A DNA stretch of 64,000 nt from Globisporangium splendens (lineage: Eukaryota > Oomycota > Peronosporomycetes > Pythiales > Pythiaceae), in contig VFIW01000011.1 in NCBI GenBank assembly GCA_006386115.1, positions 496,001 through 560,000 of the forward strand. The letters are read 5' to 3'. The notes under the pieces are model-generated. The model was given only the letters and a program-made list of their open reading frames with translations, searched no databases and had not been told where the DNA came from. How positions within the stretch are numbered: position 1 is the stretch's first letter; each line of letters begins with the position of its first letter. Positions 25,788-35,423 of this stretch are shown here, one piece after another. Made by a program: the position numbers and the translations under genes.

Positions 25788-27323
25788 ATGCGCACCGTCG
25801 CGGCCGTTTTGCTGTCTCTGGCTGCTTTGGCAAACGCAGTTCCGGTGGTTAATGGAGCGGACGATGCGGAGCTCGTGCTCTTGGTTTCGCTGTCACGCCA
25901 TGGAAGTCGAGCGCCAAATCTGACCGTGAAGAAGCTGTGCCCGAACAATGTACCAAATATGAAGTCGTACCAGGTGCCACCTGAGCAGCTCACGGAGCGA
26001 GGCATGATGCAAATGGAAGCCACGGGGCGACACATTCGAGACGTGTATGTGAACGAAAAGGGTTTTCTGTCGTCCTCGTTCAATGGAGATGATCATTCCC
26101 ATTTCGAAGCCTATTTCCGCGCTGACGCTGCGAATCGATGTGGTCAAAGCGCGATTTCTCTTGGGTACGGGCTGTACCCTGATGGAACTGGTCCGGCGGG
26201 ATACTCGAAGCAGCCCATCCCTGTTTACATGCAGCTCTCGGAAAGTGAACACGATTTCACGGCGAATGGACCTTGCTGGAGTGTGATGAACGAACACAGC
26301 AAGCATTACACTGCAACCAGAGGCAAGGAGCTGATCACTGCACATGGTGAAGCGCTCAGTCAGCTCGCGGAGATCTGTGGAGCAGAGTTTTACGCTGCGA
26401 GACCCGACGGAGGAGAGCTCGTTTCGATCAAAGATGTCGCCGACATGCTCCTCTTCGATCGCGACGAAGGGCTTAAGCCGACACCGGGACTCACACCCGA
26501 GCTCGCCGATGAACTGAGTCAACTCGCGTTCCAGAACCTAATCGAACGTCTGTACTCGACGCCACGAGAGATCACCACTGCCATTGGAGGCTTCCCGCAA
26601 CTCTTGCTGCGCACGCTCAACAATGCAGCGGCTCCGGATTGGAGTCGCGAGAAAGCCACCAAGTACTTTTCGTTCCATGGACACCGTGAACTGCTGCATG
26701 GTCTGGGCTTCATGATGGGCATGAAGTTCAACTTTGAAGGGAACCCAGCCTTCAATGGCTCCACGGCATTACACCCAGGGACGACGCTCTTCTTCGAGCT
26801 TTACCGCAAGCCAAGCACGGTGTCAACCACTGGTGAGTTCTTCATCAAACTGTTCGTCTGGTCGCCCATGAGTCCACGCACAGCGGTCAAGCTTGACAAT
26901 TGCGCGCTCGAGTGCCCGCTCGAGCAGTTCAGCTCGATCATCCAGACGCACATCCAGCAGACTGGTCCGTGGCAGGACATTTGCAATTACCACCCAGTCA
27001 ACATGCCACGACCAGTGCCCGTGAACCCGCATCCAATGGCACCAGGAGCTGTCGTGTTGGCTGCAGCAGCATCGGCAGCAGATCCACATCCGCCGCTTCC
27101 TGGACCGACTGTGGATACTGCGTCGATGGCTCTCCGTCGCCAACAAGGTGCTACCACCACCCAAGCGGCAGTCGTGGACGCGTCGGCAGCCACCGGTGAT
27201 GGCACTGCGGATCGCGCGATCGGTAACTGGGTGCTCACGGCAGGCGGCGTCGCTGTGCTCAGCGCGCTTTGCGTGGCGACGCTGCAGCGCATGAACAAGC
27301 GTCGCGAGTACATGTCTCTATAA
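25788..27323 (+). CDS. Membrane-anchored histidine acid phosphatase
   Basis: An intronless gene of 511 residues from the ATG at 25788. A signal peptide (MRTVAAVLLSLAALANA) leads into the histidine acid phosphatase signature LVSLSRHGSRAP, with nucleophilic His38 in RHG-x-R-x-P. A Pro/Ala-rich stalk and a C-terminal transmembrane helix (WVLTAGGVAVLSALCVATL) end in a short basic tail, giving a type I topology with the catalytic domain outside the cell or in a lysosome-like lumen. The second family motif, usually HD with Asp as proton donor, is aligned to FSFHGHREL, so His297 is kept but Asp is replaced by Gly298. Activity may therefore be altered or rely on another acid. The final strand motif TLFFELYRK is intact. 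Confidence 0.88.
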   Translation: MRTVAAVLLSLAALANAVPVVNGADDAELVLLVSLSRHGSRAPNLTVKKLCPNNVPNMKSYQVPPEQLTERGMMQMEATGRHIRDVYVNEKGFLSSSFNGDDHSHFEAYFRADAANRCGQSAISLGYGLYPDGTGPAGYSKQPIPVYMQLSESEHDFTANGPCWSVMNEHSKHYTATRGKELITAHGEALSQLAEICGAEFYAARPDGGELVSIKDVADMLLFDRDEGLKPTPGLTPELADELSQLAFQNLIERLYSTPREITTAIGGFPQLLLRTLNNAAAPDWSREKATKYFSFHGHRELLHGLGFMMGMKFNFEGNPAFNGSTALHPGTTLFFELYRKPSTVSTTGEFFIKLFVWSPMSPRTAVKLDNCALECPLEQFSSIIQTHIQQTGPWQDICNYHPVNMPRPVPVNPHPMAPGAVVLAAAASAADPHPPLPGPTVDTASMALRRQQGATTTQAAVVDASAATGDGTADRAIGNWVLTAGGVAVLSALCVATLQRMNKRREYMSL

Positions 27324-27602: not shown

Positions 27603-30600
27603 ATGGCGGCAAAGCTCCGCATGACGCCCGTCGCGTTCCTCCTGCAGGCGACGCCGTGGACGCCGCTCGACGTGCGGTACGTTCACAGTCATGCGCTCAA
27701 CGTCTCTCTCTCTCTCTCTCTACGTCACTATGCTCTGTTTTGCTTACGCTGTGCGCTGTGTCATGTAGACGCGGCAGCGTTGCAGACATTTCTGTGCGGA
27801 TCCGCTCGAAGGAGGACGACGCAGCTCTTGGACAGCATGGCGAGTGGGACGCTGACGCAGAGGAGTGCCTCGTATGGCAGTTTGAGCTCGAAGAGTACGA
27901 CATCGGCTTCCAGCTGCTGGAAAACGGGACTGCTCTTGGTGACCTCATGCGATACAAAGCAGGTGGCAACATCGTACAAGATGGAAAAACCACGGATTCT
28001 CCCACGAAAAGCAAGGTTCAGGAAGTCTTAGAGCGCAATGGCAAGCTACAGGACACGGTGAATGCGCATGCGGCGTGGATCGAGAACCACGCGGACGATT
28101 TGAAACCAGGAGGGACGTATACGTTCCGTTGGGACAACTCGTACTCGCTCGTGCGCCACAAGCGGCTCCAGTATCGCTTCCTCGTCACGTCCAAGCGCGC
28201 GTTTGCAGCTGCACAGACGGCAGCACACGAGGCAAATGAGAGACATTTTCAAGAAGCGAAGAAGAACAGGTGGAGTGGGTCGTTGAGACCTCATTTGGTT
28301 CGCAAACTGGCGCGAGATCGCGGGCTAAGCACAAAAGAAAACGCGGCGGAGCAGAAGTATGCGATCGAATCGCTGCAGCAATGCGTGACGGATATGGTGG
28401 CTGCATTCATGACGAAACCAGATAGCCCACTCCATGAAGGTTCTGTTCGTCCGTTCATTTTGGCGCTGGAAACCGTGCTCCGACATGGCATCAAGGTATG
28501 TATATGCGCTTGCTTTCCGTTGCAAATGATGTGAGTTCATTAAGAGAATACTATGTGTCGTGTGATTATTTAGGAATCCTTTCTCAACGAATGGCCCGAG
28601 GAGCCATACTACGAGTTTCTACTTGAAACTTGTACAGTGCTCCGAGACGACCAGGGTCTCGTCGCGGAGGTCAAGGCGCTGTCGCCACCGGAGAATCTAC
28701 AACACATTGGTTGGACCCGAGCGCGAGCTTTCCTGTTTCTTGCGCTCAACAAAAAAATCCTACATCGCGCGTTCGAGGTGCGTCAAACTTCATGAACTGC
28801 TTATTGTTGTGCAGCGGGATGAGCTTTACGTTTTAACCGTTATATGGCACTGCTTCTGTATGTGTGTCGTAGAACTTGACCAAACGGCGGATGCTTGTCG
28901 AGAAATACTACGAGCCGCATGCACTCTTGTACACGTATACAAACGCAACTCAGATCGCGTCTTTCTTGAGCGCACTCAACGCCGTCGCGTTTCTCCTCGC
29001 TCCGTTTCCCGATGAAACACGAATATTGGAAGATCCGAAGCAGATTCCTCCGAACCTGCTCCAGTGTGCCCCCGAGGCTCCGCTTCTTGGGAAAGAGAAA
29101 CTCAAATTTAGGGATGGAATCAACGCTGACAGCTCGCTTACTCGAGGCGTTTTGGCTGAGCCCGACACGATCAAGCAAGTGCAGAATTGCTCTTTGTCGA
29201 GGTATCTTCTCCATGAGTTGCCGTTCCAAGAGGTTCACATCGGGTACGTTTGTGCATGCTTCTTGCTGTGAGCTAACGGATAGGTCATTCACTTTATCTC
29301 TACCATGTTTGTGATTCGCTTTGTAGCCGAGGCTCCGTAGTGTTTGTTCCACTTGATCTGAAAGACGATCAGCCGCTGCTGGTCATTCAGCTCCAAGTCT
29401 TGTTCCAGGATATTAACGTGTCGATTGCGAACGGTGAAGAAGACGAGCTAGTGGAGCCAGTGCTTGTATCGGCTACAGATATGTGGACCGAGGGAATCTT
29501 TCGTGTGAAAACCAAGTTCAAGCCACGCCTGTCGATAAAACTCGACAACTCGTTTGCGATCGTTCGAGGAAAACAAGTGAAGCTGCGGTATCGCGTTGCA
29601 TCCGTGGACGAGTACACTCGCGCGTGGGAAGCGTGTGCTGAAATGGCTCAGTCTATCAGCTGGAAGCAAGCTGCTGCGAGCGGCGTCGAGCGATGCCAGC
29701 AGTATATGGAGTCCTTGCATCAGAAAGAGGAAGAAGAACTCACTGTGCAACGAAATCAGGACGCAGCGAACAAGAAAAGTGAGGCTGCCAGTGGTTCTCG
29801 AGTCGAAGAAGAGAGCATTCTTGGTATCCCGACGTCGCTGATTTCGAATCCAGTGTCGTACCTTGTGGGCGGTATCCTCTCATCGGATGCGAATAGCTTT
29901 TGTGCCCAGTGTTTGACGCCGTTCTCGTTCTTCGCGCGCCAACACCAATGTCCATTATGCCAAAGCGTGGTTTGCATTCCGTGCTCGCGCCACTATGTTC
30001 AAGTGAACGGCAAGGGTCCACATCTTAAGACATGCGATCGCTGCTTCCTAAAAGAAAAGGACAACGAGGTATGAGCAAAACTTACTGGGTCTTCAGTTGC
30101 TAGATGGTTACACGAGGCTGGCTGATGCAATTGTTTGCTATGTATGCCAACAGCGAAAAAGGCGTGGCAACATGGCAGGTCAGGACGCAGATCAAAGCGA
30201 ATGCGCGGCGTATGCAGCGCTTCGACGCGATCCAGCCATGGGAAAGTACTTTAAAATGCTCGGCTTTGGAGTGCCAGCGAGTGGCGTCGCACAGAAAATG
30301 ATGCAAGACGATGTGGAGCTTGAGAAAATCCAAGTGTTTTCTGCTGGTCCCAGCGGCCCGACTTCTTCCATTCTTCCGCTGGCAGGGTAAGACACATGGA
30401 TGACAAGATAGCATGCCAGATGAACTAAACGTTGGAACTTCTTGAACTCTGTGCCTTTGTTTGTAGACGAAGAGAGGGTTCTGGACCTCCAAAACTGGCG
30501 CGTCGTCGAAGTTCGTCGCTTCGCAAAGTGCATTGGACAAGCTTGGAGGCAGAGAAAGCGAGCGAATCGATCTGGACACGCGTCACGGCGCGACGAAAGA

Positions 30601-33409
30601 CTGCGCCTATCACGCTATCCCCACAGGATTTCCAGGAACTTGAACAGTTGTTCGGTGACTCATCAACAGCAACGAAAGGAGCGAACAAAGAGAAAAAGTC
30701 AGGAGGAGCCCAAAAGAAGAATTTCTCGGCTCTTGATTCTCGACGCTCGAACAACATTTCGATCGGGCTGTCGCAGTTTAAGGCTCTGGGTGGGATTGAA
30801 GCCATCATCAAGAGTCTGAGGGATTGCGATTTCAATTTCCTGACGACGGAGCGTCTCGCGAATCTGTGCGACATCGCGCCGACAAGCGTCGAAGTCAAGC
30901 GGTACACTCATTTTCGAGGGTCACGTGCTCGACTTGATGTCTCGGAACGATTTTTGGTCGAAATGTGCGAGATTCCAAGAGTGACTGAAAAGGTGGGATG
31001 CGCTTTCAGTGCGTGCTTGTGTTGATCTGCCTGCTCACTGACTGCCCTATTGATTACAACTAGATGGCAGCTATGCTATTTGCTTCGCAGTTCAACCACC
31101 AGCAGAGAGAGCTGCGGGATCGAGTCCAAGTGATCACACGAGCCTGCTATGAAATCTTGCACAGTGAACGACTTGCTCGCTGCTTCGAGCTGGTGCTGGC
31201 GATCGGAAACCTCTTGAATTCTGGCACGGAGCTGGAAGATGCGCGTGGAATCACACTGGCGTCGCTGCTGAAGGTGAACTATTTTCTATCATAGTTTGGA
31301 AAATATTGAGCTGACTACAACGTTGATGCATTTTTGCAGCTCTCGGAAACGAAATCAATGGATCGAAGCGTGACTTTGTTGCAATTTATTATCAAGCTCA
31401 TCCACGTACGTATTTCACGAATGTACTTTGAGGATGTGCGTGCTGCGTGTCTAACAACTGCGCTGCATCATCTAGGATCGAGGTGAAGGAGATATTCTCC
31501 TCTTTACCAACGAGCTGAACACGTTAGCGGATGCAAAACGGTTCTCAAATCTCATCTGTGCGTCTCAGTTTAAGGCACTCCACAGTGGCATCCAACAGCT
31601 TGAGAATGAGATTAAAGAAGAAATGGTGAATGATCTGAAGCGCTTCCGTAAGGAAGAGCAACGACGGAAGGAGCAGTTCGAGCAACAAAGCAGAGCACCA
31701 ATCAGACGACCGCCGCTGTTTAATGGAGCAGCAAAGCCCCCAGTCGCTCGTTTACCTGGTTCAAGTTTGTCTTCGGAGCCTAATGCGCGCAACTCGCTTC
31801 TTGATGCGATACGGAAACGCGGTGAGAACGAAGAAGGCAAGAATTCTAATGAGAATGGAACGAATGCGACATCGTCAGCGATGAACGGAGCTGGCAGCCA
31901 CGCAGCTCTGATGGCAGCGATTCAGAAACGAAACAAGTCGACAAGCGCCAAAAATGCCACTGCAGCTGCAGCACCAGAAGCAGAGATGGGCAGCCGTTCG
32001 GCACTGATGGAAGCGATCAAGTCGCGTCAATTGCAAGCTTCGGCGTCTGTCAAAGAAGAAGAACAGCAAGTAGAGCCAAGTGCAACCGACCCACGCTTGG
32101 CATTGATGGAGGCAATTGCAAAGCGCGGTCAGGCGAATTCTGATGTAAACGACAGTGAGCAGAATGGCGTGCCTGAAAATCCGCGCGCTGCATTATTTGC
32201 AGCAATCACGCAGAGAAAGCAACAGTCGTCGGATGCTGAGAGCGATCAAGTCCCTGCTGCTCCTATACAGAATGGAAATGGTCATTCAGCATTGCTTGCA
32301 TCAATTCGGCAACGACAAAACACTCCTGAGAACGAAGAAAGCAACTCATCGGAAGAGCCACCTAAACCACCAGCGAGCCCGCAAGCAGCACTGCTCGCTG
32401 CGATTCGAGGCAGTCTTCCGGAAAAGCCATCGAAAGAAGATTCCTCTGTTCCCATGGCTGCGTCTAACGGTAAAATTGGTGGCAGCGCGCAATTTGTACC
32501 TCGAGACTACAAGATGGAAAGCAAGTTCATTTCCGACATGCGACAACGGTTGCTAGAAATCAAAATGGCGCACGAGGATCTCGAGATGGATCTGGAGACG
32601 ATGAACTCGGTGTGGGAGGCTACGGCGAGATACCTGGGCGAAGACCCGGGAGCGTCGTCGTCAGAGTACATCTTCAACCTACTGAATCGGTTCCGCCTGG
32701 ACGTGAAAGTGGTGAAAACACTGCTTTTCCGCAAAGGACTCAGTTTCACAAATGATCTCCAGTCCCTGCTGCCGAATGCACGTAAGTGAACACATATGAC
32801 TTCGATGCGAGGTTGGTTTTGTATAGCTGCTAATTGGCTGTGCACTCAAATTGTGCATTCGTAGACGTTGGCAACACTGTTGCAACGGTTTATGGCCCAG
32901 GTGTGGTCACCGCGCTTCGTGTTGCGGACAAGCGGATCGAGATCAAGTTTCCATGGAGCCGTGAAGCGTACTTGTCTCCCAGCTGCGTGCTCTCCGCAGG
33001 AAGTTTGGTTCGATGTCGCACGTTTGGTGTCGGCATCATCCGCCAGACCCACTACGATGTCGGCTTTTGCTGCGTGCGCTTCTCCTTTGGGTACGGCATG
33101 ATCCAGGTCCAAGGCATCATGCCTGAGACGTCGTCAAATGCATCCAGTCTGCGCCAGGAGATCCTACAAACTCCATTCCGTGTAGGTGATCCAGTCTTGA
33201 CGCCATTTGGCTGTGGATTCGTCAAGTCTATCGAACTACGCAGTCGTTTCAGAGGAAACTATCAGCAGCGGCAACGAGTTGAAGCCAATCCAGACGGGAT
33301 CTTGTCCGTGCACCTACTCGCGAGTGAGATGCGCGCAGAAGAACGCGGACAAGAGAACTACGCGGGCACTGCGTTTGTTCATTTCCGGCATGCGGCGTTG
33401 AATTATTAA
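27603..33409 (+). CDS. Multidomain formin: GOLD-RUN-GOLD-FYVE-like-FH2 with seven WH2-like repeats
   Basis: Eleven exons give 1667 residues: 27603-27676, 27769-28495, 28574-28777, 28873-29243, 29327-30068, 30154-30386, 30467-30992, 31064-31273, 31340-31405, 31476-32781 and 32865-33409. All junctions are GT-AG with consistent phases. A GOLD-like domain (about 40-180, ending RLQYRFLV) is followed by a RUN domain (about 225-390, with LETVLRHGIK and WTRARAFLFLALNKKIL). A second GOLD-like domain (about 463-570) and a FYVE-like zinc finger follow (651-700, CAQC, CPLC, CIPC, CDRC). Next come a CCDC53-type motif (YFKMLGFGVPASGVAQKM) and an FH2 domain (about 795-1110). Seven ALMEAIKxR repeats (about 1150-1360) are WH2-like, and the tail is a beta-rich GPG repeat region (from about 1490). 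FH2 domains nucleate and cap actin barbed ends. RUN and FYVE modules point to small GTPase and phosphoinositide membranes. Confidence 0.88.
27702..27720. repeat. (TC)n microsatellite in formin intron 1
   Basis: A TC dinucleotide run lies inside the first intron of the formin gene and explains its polypyrimidine character. Confidence 0.85.
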
Positions 33410-33501: not shown

Positions 33502-34995
33502 TTACGCAGTCAGGTACCATCCAAATGGTTTGTCCGCGACGTACGTGCAGATTTGCTTTGGCTCCAGGTACGCGTCCAAGCCAAACGGACCAAGTTCACG
33601 ACCCGTGCCACTCTTCTTCATGCCTCCCCATGGAAGCTGCACAAAGCACGGCTGCGAGCAGTTGTTCCACACGATGCCGACGCGAAGCGCCTTGGTCACG
33701 CGCTTGAGCTGCTCGTTGTCGTTGGTGAACACGGCACCCGCGAGACCGAACTCCGAGTCGTTGGCGAGCGCAATCGCCTCCTCTTCAGTCTTGAACGTCA
33801 TCACAGAGAGAACGGGACCAAAGATCTCTTCGTTCCAGACCTTCATGTGCTTCTGCACGTTCATGAGAATCGTCGGGTGGACGAAGTAGCCTGCTTCGTG
33901 CTTGTTGATCTTCGAGGGCATCGCTTGGCCCGCGATCGTCGCGCCTTCCTTCACTGCGCCATCAATGTACGCGAGCACTTTCTCCTGCTGTGGCTTGCTC
34001 ACAAGCGGTCCCACCTGGACACCCTTCTCGATCGGGTTGCCGACCACGAGCTTCTCCGTTTCCTGCACCAGACGCTGGATGAACTCGGCCGCGATGTCTT
34101 CCTGAACCAACAGACGCGATGTGGCACTGCAGATCTGGCCATTCGTCCAGAAAACACCGAACATGACCCACTCGACGGTGCGCTCGATGTGCGTCGAGTC
34201 GAACACGATCGCCGGGGACTTGCCGCCGAGTTCCAACGAGATCTTCTTGATGTCTTCCGCCGCGGAGATCATGATGTTTCGACCCGTGGGGACACTTCCC
34301 GTGAACGCGACCTTGTGAACGTCCGGGTGCTTGACGAGAGGCGCTCCCGCTTCGGCACCGAACCCGCTCACGACGTTCAGCACACCCGAAGGAAGCCCGA
34401 CGTCCTTAGAGATTTGCGCCAATTGCAACGCAGTCAGCGGCGTAAGTTCGGAGGATTTCAAAACGACGGTGCAGCCAGCCGCAAGCGCAGGAGCGATCTT
34501 CCACAGCGCCATGAGCGCCGGGTAGTTCCACGGGATAATCGCCGCGACCACACCCACTGGCTCGTAGCGCAATTCGCCCCTGAAATCCTCGAGGGGCAAG
34601 TCTACTTTCTCATACTGACGTGCGTCCAAGCCTTCGGCGGCCGTGGCGTAGTAGCGGAAGCACCCCGAGACGTCTTCCATGTCCCATTGGGCTTCGGACA
34701 ATGGCTTCCCGCAGTCCATCGTCTCGAGTTTACTGAGCGCTTCAATGCGGGCTTCCACGGCGTCGGCCATCACGCGCAAGTACACGGCGCGATCTTTGCC
34801 CGAGGTCTGACCCCACGACTCGAACGCTTTTTTCGCAGCCGCGACGGCCAAGTCAATGTCTTCGGCCGTGCCACGAGCGACTTGCTGGATCACTTGCTCC
34901 GTCGCAGGGTTGATCACATCGAAGTACTGCTTCTTCACGGGTGCGACCCACTCGCCGTTGATGAAGAGCTCCTTGAGGTGTGGGAGATCGCTCAT
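33502..34995 (-). CDS. ALDH10-like aminoaldehyde / betaine aldehyde dehydrogenase
   Basis: An intronless gene of 497 residues from the ATG at 34995 (MSDLPHLKELFINGEW). An upstream in-frame ATG at 35085 would add 30 residues, but family members start close to the LFINGEW strand. Landmarks of NAD-dependent aldehyde dehydrogenases are present: IPWNYPALMALWKIAPALAAG, FTGSVPTGRNIM, the general-base region SLELGGKSP, catalytic Cys289 in TNGQICSATSRL, and EIFGPVLSVM. The TNGQICSATSRL spelling and overall pattern resemble plant ALDH10 (betaine aldehyde/aminoaldehyde) enzymes. Expected reactions are oxidation of betaine aldehyde or polyamine-derived aminoaldehydes. No targeting signal is evident at the chosen start. 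It converges with the formin gene, 92 bp apart. Confidence 0.9.
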   Translation of the reverse strand: MSDLPHLKELFINGEWVAPVKKQYFDVINPATEQVIQQVARGTAEDIDLAVAAAKKAFESWGQTSGKDRAVYLRVMADAVEARIEALSKLETMDCGKPLSEAQWDMEDVSGCFRYYATAAEGLDARQYEKVDLPLEDFRGELRYEPVGVVAAIIPWNYPALMALWKIAPALAAGCTVVLKSSELTPLTALQLAQISKDVGLPSGVLNVVSGFGAEAGAPLVKHPDVHKVAFTGSVPTGRNIMISAAEDIKKISLELGGKSPAIVFDSTHIERTVEWVMFGVFWTNGQICSATSRLLVQEDIAAEFIQRLVQETEKLVVGNPIEKGVQVGPLVSKPQQEKVLAYIDGAVKEGATIAGQAMPSKINKHEAGYFVHPTILMNVQKHMKVWNEEIFGPVLSVMTFKTEEEAIALANDSEFGLAGAVFTNDNEQLKRVTKALRVGIVWNNCSQPCFVQLPWGGMKKSGTGRELGPFGLDAYLEPKQICTYVADKPFGWYLTA

Positions 34996-35423
34996 GTTGG
35001 TAACGTGCACTGCAGCGGCGGAATGAGGAAGGGGGAGGTCTTGAGGCGCTTGTGCCGAAGATCGCAGATTTGGAAATGATTCCATTCACCCTGTTATTGT
35101 GGGAATCAGAATGATCAGCAGAGATGATGGTCATGATGCTGTGTCCAAACACATCGTCAATCAGCGACCTTCGAACGACATTGATTCGTCTGGCAAATGG
35201 TACAAATTGATATAGCCTATAAGGTATAATTTGCACTCCAAGTGTATCTCGTTGAATCAGGGATGACTTTCTCTAATTCGGGAAACGACTGCTTTTATTG
35301 TTGGCGCCAAGAACTCCCGCCAAAAAGAGCTCGACGTCATAATTGGTCATCACGATTGCATTCGTTTGCGCAGCTCACGCATTTCCTTCCAGTCCGTGCC
35401 AAAGCCACACACCACAGACATTT

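Follow-up and report, generated by a model that had tools for sequence, protein, structure and literature searches.

The proteins closest to the gene analysed here are membrane adaptors for one half and actin-assembly factors for the other. Canonical PI3P-binding FYVE domains carry the signatures WxxD, RRHHCR and RVC, and the FYVE domain of RUFY proteins has them. RUFY1 is named RUN and FYVE domain-containing, and RUFY1/3 and PLEKHM1/2 have, to our knowledge, no GOLD pair and no FH2 domain. For the Dictyostelium formin ForC, neither a membrane half nor a WH2-like insert nor a WASHC3-type motif is known to us. Among animal modules, FYCO1 comes nearest, an autophagy and late-endosome adaptor that is not a formin and that arranges its parts in the order RUN, coiled coil, FYVE, LIR, GOLD (PMC10472876, available extract). 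According to the accessible part of the 2008 survey (PMC2386819), ForC is an FH1-less formin and stramenopile formins are unusually varied: Table 1 lists PH, C2, PTEN, ANK and WW, and the abbreviations explained for Additional file 4 include FYVE; RUN, GOLD and WH2 are absent as whole words from the available main text. A 2017 study used Phytophthora ramorum formins and, in the portion available, excluded WH2-like motifs from its analysis (PMC5628938). In the open-licence literature, we found no paper whose full text brings together formin, FH2, FYVE and RUN domain, and no functional paper on oomycete formins.

The window, a 64,000-nucleotide stretch of the Globisporangium splendens genome (class Peronosporomycetes), contains a gene that shares RUN, FYVE and GOLD domains with FYCO1, but in the order GOLD-RUN-GOLD-FYVE, with two GOLD copies instead of one, and with FH2 as its effector half. 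No published description of this membrane-adaptor formin layout was found in the open-licence literature; the known kind to which it belongs is the formin family, and it shares its lineage with the stramenopile formins of the 2008 survey (PMC2386819, accessible part). The gene and its neighbours are:

25788-27320, + strand: neighbouring gene, histidine phosphatase superfamily branch 2
27603..33409, + strand: whole gene, 1667 aa, 11 exons (in-frame joins, GT..AG introns, near-identical public protein P0001, oomycete homologs)
27603-27676, 27769-28495, 28574-28777, 28873-29243, 29327-30068, 30154-30386, + strand: exons 1-6
30467-30992, 31064-31273, 31340-31405, 31476-32781, 32865-33409, + strand: exons 7-11
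33505-35085, - strand: neighbouring gene, aldehyde dehydrogenase

Translation of the joined exons yields 1667 residues with a single terminal stop. Each of the ten introns has GT..AG ends and a length between 66 and 95 nt; reading through them meets an in-frame stop in eight cases, and the two introns that have no such stop (1 and 9) are 92 and 70 nt long, neither length being divisible by three. The joined model and the database protein P0001 differ only at intron 7 (window positions 30993-31063). There, the joined model is preferred because its length equals that of five of the eight other proteins shown (the remaining three have gaps at this site) and because its FH2 score is higher (231.4 bits versus 220.1 bits for P0001).

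Homologs were found in 37 oomycete proteins (P0001-P0027 and P0033-P0042), all of them gene predictions, from 27 species as counted from source names. They span the genera Globisporangium, Pythium, Phytophthora, Nothophytophthora, Peronospora, Lagenidium, Aphanomyces, Saprolegnia and Achlya and two classes, with Aphanomyces and Saprolegnia representing the second, Saprolegniomycetes. Pfam labels put RUN together with FH2 on a single predicted chain in 35 of the 37 proteins, RUN, FYVE and FH2 together in 22, GOLD_2 in 21 and WH2 in 6, where some proteins without the full label set are partial or low-quality models; eight further matches (P0028-P0032, P0043-P0045) carry no RUN label. A fresh Pfam scan of P0001 and 16 homologs detected FH2, RUN, GOLD_2 and CCDC53 in 17/17, FYVE in 16/17 and WH2 in 8/17 at E ≤ 0.1. 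Outside oomycetes, the layout was not found among the approximately 8000 best word-sharing candidates of suitable length per search, and profile search scores drop from the oomycete homologs directly to ordinary formins at about 1e-27. We consider the gene to represent a real, conserved oomycete formin subfamily that has a membrane-adaptor layout and a WH2-like array interrupting its FH2 domain, with a putative function.

These data also bear on whether two adjacent genes, an adaptor and a formin, have been wrongly joined. The homologs are likewise gene predictions, which is in keeping with such an error; it is nevertheless highly improbable, because nearly all of the homologs have RUN and FH2 on one predicted chain, sequence is conserved across the exon 5-6-7 junctions, and the introns at these junctions are 85 and 80 nt long with GT..AG ends. 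The preliminary description had read eleven in-phase exons as one chain, ordered GOLD, RUN, GOLD, FYVE-like and FH2, with the same combination to be sought in other oomycetes. The joined frame is open across exons 5-7 with no stop found, RUN and FYVE are both detected by profile search, and the domain order and oomycete origin were correct. Domain identity and order, the single predicted chain, the split FH2, the missing FH1 and the oomycete conservation together constitute a firm architecture.

The membrane-adaptor half consists of the following features:

27651..28192, + strand: GOLD domain 1, residues about 17-166, exons 1-2
28337..29034, + strand: RUN domain, residues about 215-389 (Pfam core 254-377), exons 2-4
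29230..29603, + strand: GOLD domain 2, residues about 455-551, exons 4-5
Residues 552-614: predicted long helix directly after GOLD domain 2
29889..30050, + strand: FYVE-related zinc finger, residues 647-700, CxxC at 651, 667, 675 and 695 (Pfam FYVE 1.5e-7, column inspection)

The zinc finger retains eight cysteines. The PI3P signatures WxxD, RRHHCR and RVC, present in the RUFY FYVE domain, are missing here: they are absent or degenerate in 23 of the 23 rows that display the whole finger in a 30-row alignment (three of the remaining rows start inside the finger and four are without it). Consequently, endosomal targeting via PI3P is not supported. The RUN domain shares sequence and fold with RUFY1/3 and PLEKHM1/2, and the stretch R-x-R-A-[WF]-L-x-L-A-L-[NM] is common to RUFY3, PLEKHM1, PLEKHM2 and the oomycete RUN. 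By both sequence and fold, its closest solved relatives include Arl8-bound RUN domains, a resemblance that points to Arl8-type GTPases as putative partners. RUFY endosomal adaptors had earlier been named as known to combine RUN and FYVE; FYCO1 is closer, with RUN, FYVE and GOLD in one adaptor (PMC10472876, available extract). From the earlier proposal of actin assembly on endosomal or Rab-marked membranes, a membrane-recruited actin factor is retained as most likely, whereas its PI3P-based 'endosomal' component loses its support with the missing FYVE signatures.

RUN also turned up at other loci. L009 (G000:C15:33970-34458) has RUN, RhoGAP and ELMO/CED-12 domains in one open frame. At L010 (G000:C132:88968-89174), another long open frame contains a RUN part that scores 21.6 bits, just under the cut-off, along with a weak finger of FYVE type. 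The 1069-aa piece scanned contains no FH2, so that the frame may encode a related adaptor lacking the formin half.

The remainder of the protein is made up as follows:

30181..30309, + strand: WASHC3/CCDC53 C-terminal-type motif, single copy, residues 716-758 (Pfam CCDC53 2.2e-6)
30501..31646, + strand: FH2 first part, residues 796-1108, exons 7-10 (Pfam FH2 positions 5-312 of 372, protein E 2.5e-68)
31620..32525, + strand: insert in the FH2 post region, residues 1100-1401, about 300 residues with seven WH2-like motifs (Pfam WH2 1.5e-11, 44 bits on the insert piece)
31788..31820, + strand: WH2-like motif 1, residues 1156-1166
31899..31931, + strand: WH2-like motif 2, residues 1193-1203
31995..32027, + strand: WH2-like motif 3, residues 1225-1235
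32094..32126, + strand: WH2-like motif 4, residues 1258-1268
32184..32216, + strand: WH2-like motif 5, residues 1288-1298
32283..32315, + strand: WH2-like motif 6, residues 1321-1331, near the best single Pfam WH2 stretch
32382..32414, + strand: WH2-like motif 7, residues 1354-1364
32526..32732, + strand: FH2 second part, residues about 1395-1470, resuming after the insert (Pfam FH2 positions 305-371 of 372)
32781..33406, + strand: small beta barrels, weakly Tudor/KOW-like, residues 1487-1667

The earlier domain list was right as far as it went, including the presence of FH2, but it overlooked the interruption of FH2 by the WH2-like array, the missing FH1, the WASHC3-type motif before FH2 and the barrel-like C-terminal tail. 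A complete FH2 domain is present with intact core motifs. Its first part matches the mDia1 FH2 at 2.7e-34, its second part alone (a 103-aa piece) scores 3.9e-5 and 23.4 bits, below the 34.8-bit cut-off for the whole domain, and the fold alignment to formins runs across the insert. Within the 200 residues before FH2, there is no run of at least three prolines and the proline fraction is 0.065. FH1 is therefore missing. It is also missing in ForC (PMC2386819, accessible part), and since FH1-less formins are known, its absence does not disqualify the protein as a formin. An FH2 domain without FH1 could, however, mainly cap or slowly track barbed ends, so that the protein would be a vesicle-to-filament tether, acting as a cargo adaptor between a membrane and growing actin cables. 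Its insert helices would then bind the sides of filaments or fold back onto the protein. The absent FH1 and an adaptor-type N-terminal half like those of FYCO1, RUFY and PLEKHM proteins argue for this tether, but the protein keeps intact FH2 core motifs, and known formins can nucleate in vitro through FH2 without FH1; overall, we judge it rather unlikely.

The insert repeats an LLxxI helix in seven copies, with motif counts judged against shuffled sequence; reading the G. splendens protein by eye, none of the seven has a clear LKKV box after the helix. It is also found in Saprolegniales, and its repeat number differs between species. Unlike mDia1, DAAM1, INF2 and FMNL3, which are Diaphanous-type or related formins, the oomycete formin lacks FH1, no GBD/DID/FH3 was found in it, and it has several WH2-like copies located inside FH2. 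The tandem WH2 nucleators Spire and Cobl likewise have a row of such motifs in a flexible chain, but here the copies are without a clear LKKV and are placed in an FH2 loop. In INF2, the helix part alone failed to bind actin (PMC12871907, available portion). Together with the absence of a clear LKKV, this result argues against strong monomer binding, which favors the tether, and it keeps in play a further reading in which the insert is an autoinhibitory or partner-docking array, comparable to the DAD helices of Diaphanous formins and under the control of the membrane half. A resemblance to DAD helices is indeed seen in hydrophobic LLxxI helices that lack LKKV (PMC12871907, same portion). However, the usual DAD partner was not found, as no GBD, DID or FH3 is among the seven Pfam matches at E ≤ 10 in the 1667-aa protein, and a species-variable repeat number is unlike a one-to-one latch; autoinhibition is accordingly a quite improbable explanation.

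WASHC3-type motifs occupy the position where FH1 is expected. In this protein, only profile positions 96-139 of 147 of CCDC53 are matched, so the whole WASHC3 protein is not present, and the motif is modelled as short helices with block pLDDT of 78-82 for most. Across the G. splendens genome, one to eight such motifs lie just upstream of FH2 at 10 of 12 FH2 loci, a number obtained by manually grouping 21 FH2 and 37 CCDC53 matches. The motif-bearing loci are on contigs C185, C136, C125, C145, C150, C187 and C23 (loci L001, L003, L004, L008 and L014), and some pairs, such as C150 and C187, seem to be the same region present twice and do not count independently; the FH2 loci on C163 and C147 have no motif. 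The four FH2 frames with an exact FH2 start contain at most one run of at least three prolines in the 150 residues before FH2, while the start of L014 is approximate in this count. The open-licence literature, searched under the name CCDC53 and not WASHC3, yielded no paper linking formin, FH2 and CCDC53; one paper tabulates CCDC53 among the Pfam domains that are enriched or depleted in obligate biotrophs, and formins go unmentioned in the part available (PMC7217449). As separate observations, matches paired with similar spacing (C150/C187 and C147/C126) suggest duplicated or haplotype assembly copies, and the formin at L001 (G000:C187:148787-149899) has two PAH_ZNF598 stretches, of which the better match lies well downstream of FH2.

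The domain combination, the intact FH2 core and the conservation favor a membrane-recruited dimeric formin with loop-held monomers. For this formin, we infer dimerisation, membrane and GTPase binding, monomer binding and actin assembly. The GOLD-RUN-GOLD-zinc-finger half would probably recruit the protein to an internal membrane via a small GTPase, most likely of Arl8 type and possibly a Rab, with the GOLD domains adding protein partners and PI3P being unnecessary. Two chains would then form the usual FH2 ring, which may nucleate filaments or ride their barbed ends. From the FH2 post region, a flexible loop with up to seven short WH2-like helices would hold actin monomers beside the growing end, replacing the profilin and FH1 of ordinary formins. 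Actin filaments would in this way be built on the surfaces of vesicles or endolysosomes, or be tethered to them. We give an even chance to the proposition that a FYCO1-like membrane-adaptor half, fused to an FH1-less actin-assembly half, works in this way. Doubtful, by comparison, is the broader idea that oomycetes have largely swapped profilin-FH1 supply for built-in modules (WASHC3-type arrays ahead of FH2 in most of their formins and, here, also the WH2-like loop within FH2), making the protein a 'self-feeding' device, known only from oomycetes, that is anchored to membranes by its FYCO1-like half.

If the proposed mechanism is true, a single protein would combine self-recruitment to an internal membrane with actin assembly at that site, and FH2 would tolerate a loop of about 300 residues, possibly monomer-binding, in its post region. 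A natural protein would then make it directly testable whether WH2 can replace FH1-profilin. The membrane-adaptor formin is an entry point to endomembrane-actin coupling in oomycetes, and its layout suggests a water-mould way to build actin on internal membranes.
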